From positions 119,958-183,957 of the forward strand of contig NW_026516298.1 of assembly GCF_025602895.1 (NCBI RefSeq): DNA of 64,000 nt, written 5' to 3'. A model generated the notes under the pieces. The model was not told where the DNA came from, searched no databases, and was given only the letters and a program-made list of their open reading frames with translations. This stretch comes from Polychytrium aggregatum (lineage: Eukaryota; Chytridiomycota; Chytridiomycetes; Polychytriales). A program made the position numbers and the translations under genes. This document shows positions 58,768 to 63,526 of the stretch, in pieces. Numbering within the stretch: position 1 is the first letter of the stretch; the number at the start of each line of letters is the position of its first letter.

Positions 58768-58953
58768 TTTGTAGTGGCGATAGAAAGTGGTTAGGAGAGA
58801 GGTGTTGGTTTGTTGCGGCAATCAAGACCCAAACGTTGAAGGCAAAAGTGTGTCCTCGGGAACCCGTGGGAATCAGGGGCAAAGTCAGAAGGGGAGATGG
58901 CGATCTGAGCACTGGTGGCTACTTGACGACTCGACTGCTCGAGCTATTTACAC

Positions 58954-58959
58954 TTTATT
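58954..58959 (-). terminator. AATAAA poly(A) signal of the Fanzor transcript
   Basis: AATAAA on the minus strand, about 90 bases after the Fanzor stop codon, in the only AT-rich stretch before the next gene. Confidence 0.5.
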
Positions 58960-59011
58960 CAGAAAAAAACGGGACAATATAGCCGTTTCCATGAACATGT
59001 AGTATGTGCTG

Positions 59012-59026
59012 TGCTTGCGTCAAGCA
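59012..59026 (-). other. Perfect stem-loop just 3' of the Fanzor stop
   Basis: The inverted repeat TGCTTG-nnn-CAAGCA forms a 6-bp stem with a 3-base loop, 22-37 bases beyond the Fanzor stop codon. In TnpB and Fanzor systems the guide RNA comes from the 3' end of the gene and its flank, so this stem may belong to such an RNA. That is inference from position only. Confidence 0.4.
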
Positions 59027-59048
59027 AAGCCACAAGAAATAAAACAGA

Positions 59049-61422
59049 TCACTTTGGCAGCCTCCGAGTGAAGACCACCGGTCGCTCTCCGATCTCCACA
59101 ATCGACCTGCATACTGTGATCATGTTGCGCGCCGCATTGACGTCGCGATTCCACACTGTCCGGCAGCTGGGATTCTTGCAGCTCCTGACAAAGTGGGAAT
59201 TCGCAACACTGGGCGCATCGAGTCCTTCCAACCGAACTGGCTCCAGGCACTTGGAGCACACTTGCGAGGTGTTGAACTCGTTCGTCGAGGCCACCTTGAC
59301 GCTTCCATGATGGTGATTGGGACGGCGTCGGTGGTGCTCGAATTGCTCAAAGTACCGAGCGAACCGCTGCCTCCGAGGGCTGGATGCATAGCCCTTGCCC
59401 TGTCGCCATGACGCATTGCCAAAGGCGATCACCACATCGGTCCGTATCGGGGCGTGCTTCAGGACGGCCTTGCACATCCTGTCGACGGCCACTTGGCGCC
59501 TCTTGTGGCCTGTGAAGCGATGGTGACGGGCCTTCTTGCCAAGGTGGAAGTCGAGCTGCACTCGCAGCTCCGGTCGCAGGACATGGGTGAGATGGACCTT
59601 GAAAGCCTCCGAGGACGACACCTTGGGCGAGGGGGTGGTCGACATCCAGGTCTCGATGCTGAGTCGATACTTCATGATATTGTGCCACTTGGTGTTGGAC
59701 GTATGGCCACACATGTGCTGGTAGTGACCATTGGAGAATGAGACCACCTCGTCTTGGTGACCCGGTGCTTGGATGACCGCCGTGAAGATGGAGCCGACTC
59801 CAGGATCGATGCCAATCCAAGTGGTGCGGTTGGGGTCTGGGTCGCCGATGTGGGCCTGGATGCGCTGCTCGGAAGTCGGAGGAGGCTCGATGGTCTCGGT
59901 GTGATCGGTTCGAGGCAGAAACTTGACGAGACCGATGGTGCATCCAATGCCATCGGTGCTGATCTCGTAGTTGAACAGCTTCTTGTCCCTGACCCGCTCT
60001 TGGAAGAGGGAACTACGCAGCTTGAAGCAACTGCGCCAGAGACGATCCTGGTTGTTGATGCCGTCATCACCTTGTTCCTTGAGCATGTCCCTGGTGAGTC
60101 CAAGGCGTTTCTTTGGACCAAGGAGCTCCCAGAGAGTGACCGTGTCGATCTTGACATACTTGGCCTTGGTGGTGCACAGAGGAACCATCGTGCACACGGC
60201 TGGAGGAGTGTCGAGAGCGAGCTGCTTGAGTGCCCACTTGAGCCTGGATGCCAGCTTGTTGATCTTGGACTTGGTGGTGCCGAGCTCAGACTTGGCCTTG
60301 GTGAACCTCTTGTCGTCGGAGGGAATGCCTTGGGTAGTGAGCTCGTCTAGCTTGACCTGGCGCTGCAGCTCGGTGACTCGGAGGGCGGGCATGTCACAGT
60401 CGATCCACTTGTGGACATTGTCGACCATCTTGTCTCGGGCGAGGATTCTCACATGGTGTGAGAGGCGGTAGAGGGTCCGGAAGCGGTCCTGGTCGTTGCT
60501 GTACCGAAACTCGTCCAGGATGTGACCAAAGTCGGGGTAGAGGAACTCGAGATCGGCCTTGGGTGGAGTCTGCCCTGGTTTCTCGAAGAGCTCGAGACAG
60601 GCCTCGATGGCTTCGTGCTTATGCTTGTTGGCTGGGAAGACGGCAGCACAGAAGCGACGAAGGAGTCGCCAGTAGGCCAGGTCGAGGTGGGTGGTGCAGT
60701 TGGTAGCATAGGCATTGACAGCCAGTGTGAGAAGCTGACTGTGAGCACCATCAGGCAGACAAGGGGCCGGAGGCAGGTCTGCATGTCGAGTGGTCTGGTA
60801 GTCGCGAAAGGAAGCGACCAGATGCTCGTTGTATTTCTCGTTGTCCCCGGTCGGGGAGAGGGCATCGGCCTCGACAATCGTGAAGCATTGGCGGATGAAT
60901 GCAGGGGTGGACTTGGAGATGACGGGGACGGGAAGATCCTGCTCGATGCACCTCAGGATGTGCAGGTTGAGCAGCCTGGATGCCTCGAACTGGATCTGGG
61001 TCATGGCCTCGACGGTGGCCTGGATCTTGTCGCGGAGAGCGGGATTGAGACAACAGCCATCCATCGTCTGCTTGAAGCAGCTGAACTGAGGGGCGGATGA
61101 CCTTCCATCCACGAGTGGGACGACAGAACTCTTGAGGGGCCGGTATTTGGGACATTTGCTGGTGTTGCAAACGTTCGTGATCGGTGCCATCGCACTTGGG
61201 ACATCGCTTGCCGGTACTCGAGGAAGTAGATGGACCAGGCTCGGTGGGATCGACATCCATTGGATCTGCAGAAGCAGTGGTGGTGAGCGATGGAGCAACA
61301 GACGACCAAGCATGCGTGGGGTCAGAATACGAACCAGAGACAGGCTCCGACTGTGACTTGGCTTTCTTGGGCCTGGGTGGCCGAGGCTGGCCATCACCGG
61401 CACCCTTACGCTTCGGAGGCAT
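59049..61422 (-). CDS. Fanzor (eukaryotic TnpB-like RNA-guided nuclease), one frameshift
   Basis: Fanzors are transposon-borne RuvC nucleases related to TnpB and Cas12. Start MPPKRKGAGDG at 61422 gives a basic, NLS-like leader (PPRPKKAKSQ) and a Cys/His zinc-knuckle-like KRCPKCDGTDHE. A single extra T in the run at 61169-61171 then shifts the frame; the rest is open to 59049, about 790 aa in all. RuvC-I is WIGIDPGVGSIFTAVIQ. RuvC-II reads VVIAFGNASW, with Gly where TnpB has the catalytic Glu; a Glu 47 residues later (TNEFNTS) fits the rearranged site reported for Fanzors. The zinc ribbon is CSKC plus CKNPSC, and RuvC-III is NRDVNAARNM. An alternative reading starts at Met 61403 in the long frame but loses the NLS and knuckle. 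A decayed copy lies at 5041-5215. Confidence 0.9.
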
Positions 61423-61550
61423 GGGGGCAGAGAATGCTGGATGTCTGCCAGTGGTACTGGTCAGAGCAGAGACTTTTTTTATCGTACAATAGCGCGATGA
61501 TCAGATCAAGGCGAGATGAGGGAAGAAAAGCAGCAGGACGAAGGTGTGGC

Positions 61551-61557
61551 ATTTATA
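61551..61557 (-). promoter_or_regulatory. TATA box of the Fanzor gene
   Basis: TATAAAT on the minus strand, about 130 bases upstream of the Fanzor start at 61422 and downstream of the transposase stop. It suggests the Fanzor has its own promoter rather than reading through from the transposase. Confidence 0.5.
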
Positions 61558-61676
61558 CCCGAGAGCAGGAACCCGTCTGCGCGGGCTGGTTGGGGGGGGT
61601 GACCCTGTTCAAAAAATCGCCGAGAGGTTCAAGCCAGGGATTTGAGCGTGAAAATGGCGGCGTGATTGGAGGGAAC

Positions 61677-62607
61677 TCAACCCCAGAAGCGCATCGCTCG
61701 CTCAATCAGCCGTGGGAAGACATCTGGAAGCACCCTCCGAACGGCAGACTCAAACAGGGTCACCATTCCGACTCTGAACCCCTCGGACGCATTCAGCGCT
61801 GCTGCCTTCCTGTACTGATGCTTCACAATCCCAAAGAAGTTCTCGATGGGATTGAAGTCGGGTGAAGCAGGTGGGGTGAAGATCACTGACCATCCTCGGC
61901 GATCGATGCAGTCCAGGACAGCCATTGTCTTGTGCATGCTGACATTGTCCATCACAATCACAGAGCCATCTGCGAAGGTCGCTCGCTCAAAGAACTCGAC
62001 CATCGAGTGTGTCTTGAATGATGTGGGGATGTACATGCGATGCAGCACACCAGAGTGGTTGATTGCAAATGCAGCCGAGACAGACTTGTGCTTCATGTGA
62101 TTGCGCTGGCGAAGCGGAGCACCCTTCGGTGAGTATCCGTAGAGAGGGAAAATGGATTTCCTGATCCCTGTCTCGTCGACAAAACGAATCGCCGCGGGTC
62201 AATGGAGCGGGCCTGGTCCCTGACTGTGCCACTCGCTCATCCAGTCGCTTGGACTTGTAGAGGTGTGTTGCCCTCTTGTGTGAGAGACCTGCTCGGTGGA
62301 TGGCAGTGTGGCAGAGTGAGAGTGATACTTTCCTCTGGAGGATGGACTCGAGCTTGCACCGCAACACAGGACCAGTCTGGAACGGGTCCTGTTCAATCAG
62401 GGTGCGAATGACTGGACATGCCTGCTCGAAGAAAGTGGATCTGCGAGCTGGGACCCGGGATGGGTCATCCAGCTTGCATCCTCGGTGCCATCGATGGATG
62501 GTGCTCTTGGACACACTGAATATGGAGGCGACCTTACGCAGGCTATGGATGAGGGCGTAGCATCGCAATGCGGCGGTGCGAAAGTCGGATGTGTGGCGAA
62601 TGGTCAT
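61677..62607 (-). pseudogene. Tc1/mariner (IS630-like) DD34E transposase, two frameshifts
   Basis: A cut-and-paste transposase of the DDE_3/Tc1 group. It begins at Met 62607 with a helix-turn-helix region (HSLRKVASIFSVSKSTIHRW) and continues to DERVAQ. Near 62222 the frame must shift to read RDQARSIDPRRF, and near 62184 it shifts again to VDETGIRKSIFPLYGYSPKG and stays open to the stop at 61677. Catalytic residues are present: D in VDETG, D in VIVMDNVSMHK and E in NPIENFF, with 34 residues between the last two (DD34E). Both shifts equal a single missing T in or beside a T run. The Fanzor start lies 254 bases downstream on the same strand. Confidence 0.87.
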
Positions 62608-63526
62608 GGCCAGCGCGCGATAACATTGGGTAGCAAAATATTCGGAGAATGGTCAAAATCCCGGGTGTCCGTTTTTTATTGATTGCCCGTAAGGTCATCC
62701 CCAGTGCAGCCACGCCGTGATCATTAGAAGCAACGAACACTTCTATGAAGGCGCAGTGGGGTGATCACCGAGTGCACGAGCTCTCTGCGCGGAAACTCTG
62801 GAAGGACGATGGGGAACCTTGCGATGGCGTGGGTATCCGTCTGCCGTGCACGCAACTCGGGATTGGGTAGAACCGTCCGATTCCGGTGATACCACGGAGA
62901 GAAAGTCTGTTAGTGTGACACAATCGCTTCTCTGGGGTGATCGGCTCCGCGGGTCGCTTCACCCGGTTCTCAAAACGAAACAGCACAGCACAGTTGCGCG
63001 CATCCACCGCCCTCCGCAACACGCCCGAGGCCGGCATTGCCGCTGTGCGCTGGTGTGGGCGCCCTCTATTCGCTCGAGGCCGCCTCCATCGTCGCAGTAA
63101 GCGTCAAACGTCGCAGCAAGAGTCGAACGCCGCTCGTGAGAATCGATATCATGTATTCGAGACAAGGTTGTCCAAAAAGTGTTTGCCATCCGCAACTGAC
63201 AGCGGCGGCGGGAGCAGCCAAAGTAAAGCAACGAGCTCTTTCCCGTCAGTGAGCACCACTCCGAAGCTCGGAAGGAGTATCGATGCGGGCGTCTGACTGG
63301 GAAGGAGGCACAGCGGACATCAAGATCCTCTGTTTGTGGCGCTCGTCTGGCACCGCTTGTGTTGTCCAATGTCGCTTGACTCCTTGGCGCCGACTGGCGG
63401 GGCGCTGTGGGCTCGACGTTCTTGGTGCCATACGGAGCGAACTTGCTTTCGACGAGTCTGCGGGCTCCATCGATCCTCGGCTCGGATGTGCAGCCATCTC
63501 CCGCATCAGAATTCATCCCGCGGCAT
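62608..63526. other. Region without a supported gene beside the mobile locus
   Basis: Open frames (for example 63516-62959 minus) have no domain, no splice logic and Arg/Ser-rich composition. The first 100 bases may hold the outer end of the transposon. The remainder is 3' flank of the gene entering from the right. Confidence 0.4.

Follow-up and report, generated by a model that had tools for sequence, protein, structure and literature searches.

The DNA analysed here, hereafter the window, is a 64,000-nucleotide (nt) stretch of the genome of the chytrid Polychytrium aggregatum (RefSeq assembly GCF_025602895.1, contig NW_026516298.1, positions 119,958 to 183,957). Its minus strand carries a transposon in which a Tc1/mariner transposase gene (62607 to 61677) is followed by a gene for a Fanzor1 RNA-guided nuclease (61422 to 59049; Table 1); the transposase stop (61677) and the Fanzor ATG (61422) are 254 nt apart. 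A preliminary description of the region had placed a Fanzor and a DD34E transposase 254 bases apart on the same strand, and both genes were indeed found there, with domain matches in each; the extent that it gave, 58946..62703, is corrected here to 58951-62689, with TA at 58949-58950 and 62690-62691. The inverted repeats read CAGGCAATCCAATAAAAAACGGGACA at the 5' end in most copies and CACTTTATTCAGAAAAAAACGGGACA at the 3' end, and TA follows next on either side. Terminal inverted repeats and a TA duplication, present at 77 of 81 Fanzor-side flanks, mark the element as Tc1/mariner, while carriage by a eukaryotic, non-IS607 transposon with a Tc1/mariner transposase, repeats and TA marks the nuclease as Fanzor1. 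In the following, the transposase side is the left end of the element, and the Fanzor side, where the guide RNA is predicted, is the right end or guide side.

Table 1. Features of the Fanzor1-bearing transposon in the window
Feature	Position	Strand	Basis
Whole element with transposase, Fanzor1 and predicted guide RNA, 3,739 bp	58951..62689	-	ends compared over 40 copies, 84 loci
TTA on the transposase side: TA duplication (62690-62691) plus conserved T; predicted target-adjacent motif	62690..62692	-	79/84 loci
TA duplication on the Fanzor side; predicted guide-encoding flank runs outward from 58948 downward	58949..58950	-	TA in 77/81 flanks
5' terminal inverted repeat; tip CGGG in the window copy, CAGG in most copies	62666..62689	-	
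3' terminal inverted repeat	58951..58976	+	
Tc1/mariner DD34E transposase gene, frameshifted in the window copy; 310 aa when intact	61677..62607	-	
Fanzor1 gene, frameshifted near the N-terminus in the window copy; 790 aa when intact	59049..61422	-	
Predicted guide RNA (omega RNA) scaffold, last 85 nt plus TA	58951..59035	-	fold z = -2.5

Copies of the element and the proteins they encode

We searched the 64.7-Mb assembly (418 contigs) for further copies. Among the 40 candidates scored of 1,281, at least 67 pieces matched the element, and at least 23 places, the window included, matched the query practically end to end (95-100%). A search with end patterns, allowing up to three mismatches, returned 461 left and 279 right ends genome-wide, and the reversed control patterns gave zero matches in the genome. 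Pairing of the first 100 exact left and right ends listed, mostly on contigs C1-C141, yielded 64 elements, 52 of them 3.1-3.75 kb long and 12 short (seven of a few hundred bp and five of about 1.1 kb). Another 36 of the 100 listed left ends lacked an exact right partner; in 6 of 8 such cases that were fetched, a mismatched right end lay at a plausible distance. All 13 short elements compared, which we refer to as ghosts where no protein gene is left, are internal deletions in which at least 97 nt of the left end and 166 nt of the right end survive. Transposase and Fanzor thus form one mobile unit, bounded by common inverted repeats and TA duplications and repeated genome-wide, as the end-to-end places and the paired elements demonstrate; their linkage is read from the paired elements, 150 of 335 candidates having been scored in a genome scan for the transposase domain DDE_3; elements with only one of the two genes may exist as well. 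The unit had been anticipated in the preliminary description, whose further suggestion that it is recent holds only in part: the average divergence between non-allelic copies is 3.8%, and both genes of the window copy are broken.

In the window copy, the transposase is split into the frames 61987-62607 and 61677-62096, and the N-terminal part of the Fanzor, from the ATG at 61422, lies in a different frame from the 784-amino-acid (aa) remainder (59049-61403). This copy is thus not intact, contrary to the near-complete preservation of both proteins proposed earlier; in the family, the Fanzor has 790 aa and the transposase 310 aa. We assessed coding state in 45 long copies, a set that comprises the 40 best matches to the window and includes second versions of sites. 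The Fanzor was open over 788 aa or more in 39 of them, the 310-aa transposase in 18 and both genes in 17; where the transposase was broken, the Fanzor was still open in 22 of 27. The ratio of nonsynonymous to synonymous polymorphism (pN/pS) of the Fanzor was 0.32 in 14 copies with an intact transposase and 0.31 in 22 copies with a broken one, and that of the transposase was 0.23 in 18 intact genes. Both genes are under purifying constraint. The best explanation of these observations is an abundant autonomous Tc1/mariner transposon that carries Fanzor1 and its predicted guide RNA. Transposase deletions with the same breakpoints (105 nt and others) recur in part of the copies L037-L048, L061 and L067, and likely mark non-autonomous subfamilies, mostly with an open Fanzor.

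The transposase matched Pfam DDE_3 (PF13358; E=4.8e-16 for the C-terminal part in the window, E=2.8e-24 for the intact sister copy L012), and the spacing from D to E, counted by eye, is 34 residues, which is the DD34E arrangement of the DDE_3 type. Its 31 homologues are all distant (best identity 38%). The window Fanzor matched Pfam Cas12f1-like_TNB (PF07282; E=2.4e-9). In copy L012, the Bao-Jurka signature D-X(125,275)-[TS][TS]-XX-C4 zinc finger-X(5,50)-RD is present as D539, 178 residues, TSQVC.. and RD. The RuvC-I motif DPG lies at D539 and is followed by the candidate alternative glutamate E692, chosen by spacing and not by structure or alignment, and by D760; the resulting candidate catalytic spacings are 153 and 68, against 158 and 65 in D383/E541/D606 of SpuFz1. 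A TDG at 489 is a candidate for the WED-domain motif of the same letters in Fanzor1 (PMC10711439). Among solved structures, the Fanzor gave weak sequence matches to SpuFz1 (8gkh, E=0.37), in its C-terminal part, and to LaTranC (E=0.44). At E<=0.001, no Fanzor homologue was found among 8000 scored candidates, and none in viral contigs. A single-sequence structure model of the window Fanzor had a mean predicted local distance difference test score of 38 and was unusable.

Two related families share related ends and 3' parts of the Fanzor (the right 1.5 kb at L004; the left flank of L067; L147-L172). One of them is seen only as ghosts of ~170-330 bp, with 248 left-end and 96 right-end pattern matches. 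By coordinates, such a ghost directly abuts the guide-side flank of L067 at C375:635899-636200; on C22, an 18-nt filler and the L067 element sit between ghost and flank.

The two ends of the element

Tips and flanks were compared at 84 unique loci, after removal of L010 (a second version of L009) and of 14 loci with a shared left flank. On the transposase side, the base before TA was T at 79 loci, A at 3 and C at 2 (at L067, CA stands in place of TA). Of 81 guide-side flanks, 77 began with TA, and there the next base was C (28), G (21), A (16) or T (12). The frequencies of T before TA (79/84) and of A after TA (16/77) differ with a Fisher p of 3e-23. As a symmetric preference would need A after the guide-side TA, the target preference is not symmetric. 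Since T is nearly constant on the transposase side while the guide side is unbiased, we infer that TTA is the target-adjacent motif of this family's Fanzor. The right end reads AGTG in all 58 elements in which it is readable, and the occupied junction beside the guide therefore does not read TTA. A comparable relation has been described for SpuFz1, in which a conserved CA before the 5' repeat fits the motif CATA (PMC10432273). TTA was also present at 6 of 7 distinct short ghosts lacking a protein gene. At 7 of 78 loci (L031, L055, L073, L101, L107, L139 and L145), the guide-side flank begins with CAG after TA and so resembles the repeat tip, against about 1.2 expected under assumed base frequencies.

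After TTA, the element usually starts with CAGGCAAT, CAGGCGAT or CGGGCGAT (68 of 84 loci). Of the loci for which a guide-side flank was available, 16 have an altered outer tip. In 9 of them the tip is identical to the opening 4-9 nt of the flank on the guide side of that very locus, with captured lengths of 4 (L013), 5 (L027, L028, L035), 6 (L063), 7 (L024), 8 (L077) and 9 nt (L091, L107). When tips were paired with random flanks, the mean was 0.26 matches and the maximum 4 in 20,000 runs; among 66 canonical tips, none matched its own flank by at least 4 nt. A first set of altered tips gave 6 of 11 captures, and a second set, fetched after the pattern had been noted and picked without regard to the left tip but on an exact right end, gave 3 of 5. 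At L063 and L077 the captured piece alters the length of the tip, and these two scars are therefore not point mutations. No such change was seen among the 58 readable right tips.

At the opposite end, the last 85 nt plus TA are predicted to fold with a z of -2.5 (1 of 200 shuffles as good). A terminal stem is predicted in which the TA-containing end, including the TA duplication, pairs with an upstream segment. By free energy, this stem with the duplication was recovered in two of three families, in the second with other bases; in the third it was not predicted, though a matching segment exists. Repeats and target-site duplication within the guide RNA scaffold have been described for Fanzor1 (PMC10711439). 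We predict a guide RNA at the Fanzor-side end, with moderate support; the predicted RNA falls inside 58950-59100, the region in which the preliminary description had advised looking for small RNAs.

A proposed homing mechanism and its alternatives

In our reading, which draws on these junction sequences, the TTA bias and the captured tips are traces left by RNA-guided homing into sites that were still empty. The transposase would make new insertions at TA. The Fanzor-side end would be transcribed into the guide RNA, whose last stem would contain TA and whose guide would come from the adjacent host DNA. With it, the Fanzor would recognise 5'-TTA followed by the guide sequence wherever a homologous or sister chromosome still has the site uninterrupted. 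An occupied site would be spared because the element ends in G and its junction reads GTA, not TTA. For SpuFz1, cleavage requires CATA, a motif ending in TA, and the non-target strand is cut after base 16-17 (PMC10432273). A cut about 16 nt past TTA in an empty site would leave target bases on the left broken end only, which is why we favour homing as the source of the scars. This end, carrying TTA and up to about 16 nt of target, would invade the element-bearing chromosome and copy the element in, and its non-matching target bases would usually be trimmed back to TTA. Where the target resembles the repeat tip by chance, synthesis could begin inside the tip, and a few target bases would stay as a scar. 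Ghosts, in which the predicted guide RNA is preserved, could be driven in trans, and element interiors would be exchanged when repair switches template between the many copies. Taken whole, a transposon with Fanzor1-guided homing into empty TTA sites has, in our estimate, a probability of roughly 60%. With slightly less assurance, we lean towards regarding the element as a natural eukaryotic RNA-guided gene drive, in which empty sites would be cut beside TTA, repair would copy the element in, the scars would be fossil homing events and ghosts would be driven in trans.

Empty and second versions of the sites were sought with joined-flank queries for 37 of 40 loci (L038, L039 and L048 were omitted), run as three queries in which 40 of 61, 40 of 43 and all candidates, respectively, were scored. 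None of the 37 loci gave a full joined-flank match among the candidates scored; by our own count of the places listed, 25 were occupied at two places and 11 at one with both flanks. At 11 of these 25 sites, the two elements had lengths more than 20 nt apart; at L035/L173, they are 3.6 kb and 307 bp long, with flanks differing at 1 of 202 bases and the same scar in both. In nine pairs that were read, flanks differed at 6 of 5,340 bases and element interiors at 554 of 27,286. Interiors differed by 0.9-4.3% in seven pairs, by a single mismatch in L021/L023 and at no base in L051/L052. Both variants were present in at least two other copies for 434 of the 557 differing bases in the seven pairs. 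Repeat-induced point mutation as the source of these differences was ruled out, since most differing bases recur in other copies and transitions make up only about two thirds. The interior differences stem from either real ectopic exchange or assembly error, and the argument for homing is independent of them. A reverse-transcriptase family, considered as a control for such swaps, was discarded, as the scores of most of the 150 copies scored were alike; its many like-scoring 1284-aa frames are clustered at C1:1275-1320 kb, C115, C201, C366 and C11.

The second version of each site may be an artefact of assembly, in the form of duplicate contigs or misplaced repeat copies, which would make the swaps and the missing empty sites meaningless. 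We hold this to be possible but not the likelier case, and compatible with homing. C415 and C46 are identical in unique DNA over 5 kb (a 5-kb flank query found itself and the sister contig, a 19.9-kb query neither), as duplicate contigs would be, and L011 and L036 have only one flank in common, but the agreement within L021/L023 and L051/L052 and the length differences at the 11 sites argue against it. The TTA bias and the scars, being located within single contigs, are untouched by such errors, and the scars of L091 and L035 are found in both versions. The shared flank of L011 (C23) and L036 (C334) is the guide-side one, as would arise from an ectopic crossover or a chimeric contig.

An unlikely alternative holds that the transposase alone makes the ends, preferring TTA in one orientation, with the Fanzor as a passenger and the odd tips as mutations or aberrant insertions with longer duplications. 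A transposase is indeed encoded, the TA duplications are regular, TTA is kept at ghosts without a protein gene and TTACAG-like targets are enriched (7/78). Tc1/mariner target preference is symmetric as a rule, however, and A follows the guide-side TA only 16 times in 77. Moreover, mutation predicts no match to the element's own flank (9/16 vs 0.26), a shortened tip joined to TA gains no target bases, and the constraint on the Fanzor (pN/pS 0.32) speaks against an idle passenger. Ordinary ectopic or allelic recombination among hundreds of copies, which would swap interiors and sometimes convert a tip to the empty allele without any Fanzor cut, seems about as doubtful: the interiors do resemble mosaics of variants in other copies, and the 461 left-end matches are ample templates, but random breaks should scar both ends, whereas the scars lie on the transposase side directly after TA and at 0 of 58 right tips.

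Several observations weigh against homing. Capture does not account for seven of the 16 odd tips (L009, L039, L040, L047 with 2 nt, L060 with 3 nt, L071 and L087), and 'canonical' was defined after inspection of the data. CGGGCGAT was ranked canonical as it recurs at five loci, none of which matches its own flank by 4 nt; were it also counted as non-canonical, the score would be 9 of 21. Scars at the right end may be under-seen, as an exact right end was a condition for entering the second set and no right end was obtained from L065 and L068. In the older related ghost family, judged by eye, a captured tip occurs at 1 of 21 loci (L147, 6 nt), and TTA is weaker (9 of 16 loci with an intact TA; A at 5, C at 2). 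The transposase itself could be the source of TTA, through a one-sided target preference. The fold of the guide RNA is modest, with z values of -1.2 for a longer piece and of -0.9 and -0.2 in the two related families. L067 is occupied on C22 and, by coordinates, seems to lack the element on C375, while the missing empty sites are weak evidence, given a flank difference of only 0.11% between the two versions. Finally, plain homing copies the allelic interior, so that swaps need an extra step or reflect assembly error, and two of nine pairs show none.

Known Fanzor elements and the native role of Fanzor

As a Tc1/mariner transposon with Fanzor1, the element belongs to a familiar type; what is new is the evidence on function. 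Mariner elements with Fanzor1 have been known since the work of Bao and Jurka in 2013 (PMC3627910). PGv-1 and PUl-1 likewise hold a mariner-like transposase and Fanzor1 between inverted repeats with TA duplications, but PGv-1 is a virus-borne single copy, in contrast to hundreds of ends in one genome here, and the portions of that paper available to us mention neither an oriented TTA nor target-capturing tips for the two elements (PMC3627910). SPu-1 of Spizellomyces punctatus, which encodes SpuFz1, is similar in its inverted repeats, TA duplications, 3'-end guide RNA and ghosts (PMC3627910, PMC10432273) and in having conserved bases before its 5' repeat, there CA, which fit its motif (PMC10432273). 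It differs in that no transposase is reported within its repeats in the accessible text, in its motif (CATA, against the predicted TTA) and in protein length (633 against 790 aa; PMC3627910, PMC10432273). GtFz1 of Guillardia theta uses TTAA(N), close to the predicted TTA (PMC10432273, PMC11423790), but is algal and is likened here by motif, not by protein alignment. The plasmid gene drive of IS200/IS605 TnpB follows the same logic, as the guide records the insertion site, empty copies are cut and the element spreads; that system is bacterial, has another kind of transposase and is proven by experiment, whereas here a DDE transposase in a eukaryote is considered from sequence evidence only (PMC11870625). 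In the parts of the literature searched that were accessible, no description of the oriented TTA or of captured target bases was found.

According to PMC10432273, what Fanzors do in their native setting is unknown. That a Fanzor helps its element to copy into empty sites is a role suspected but so far undemonstrated, and the scars suggest it. If we read them rightly, the native role of Fanzor would be legible from genome sequence, and one could look, in any Fanzor element with enough copies, for an oriented motif and for target capture on the motif side only. For biochemical work, the family supplies both a motif to start from (TTA) and natural guide-target pairs by the dozen; the oriented TTA and, above all, the captured bases make the native role of the Fanzor directly testable.

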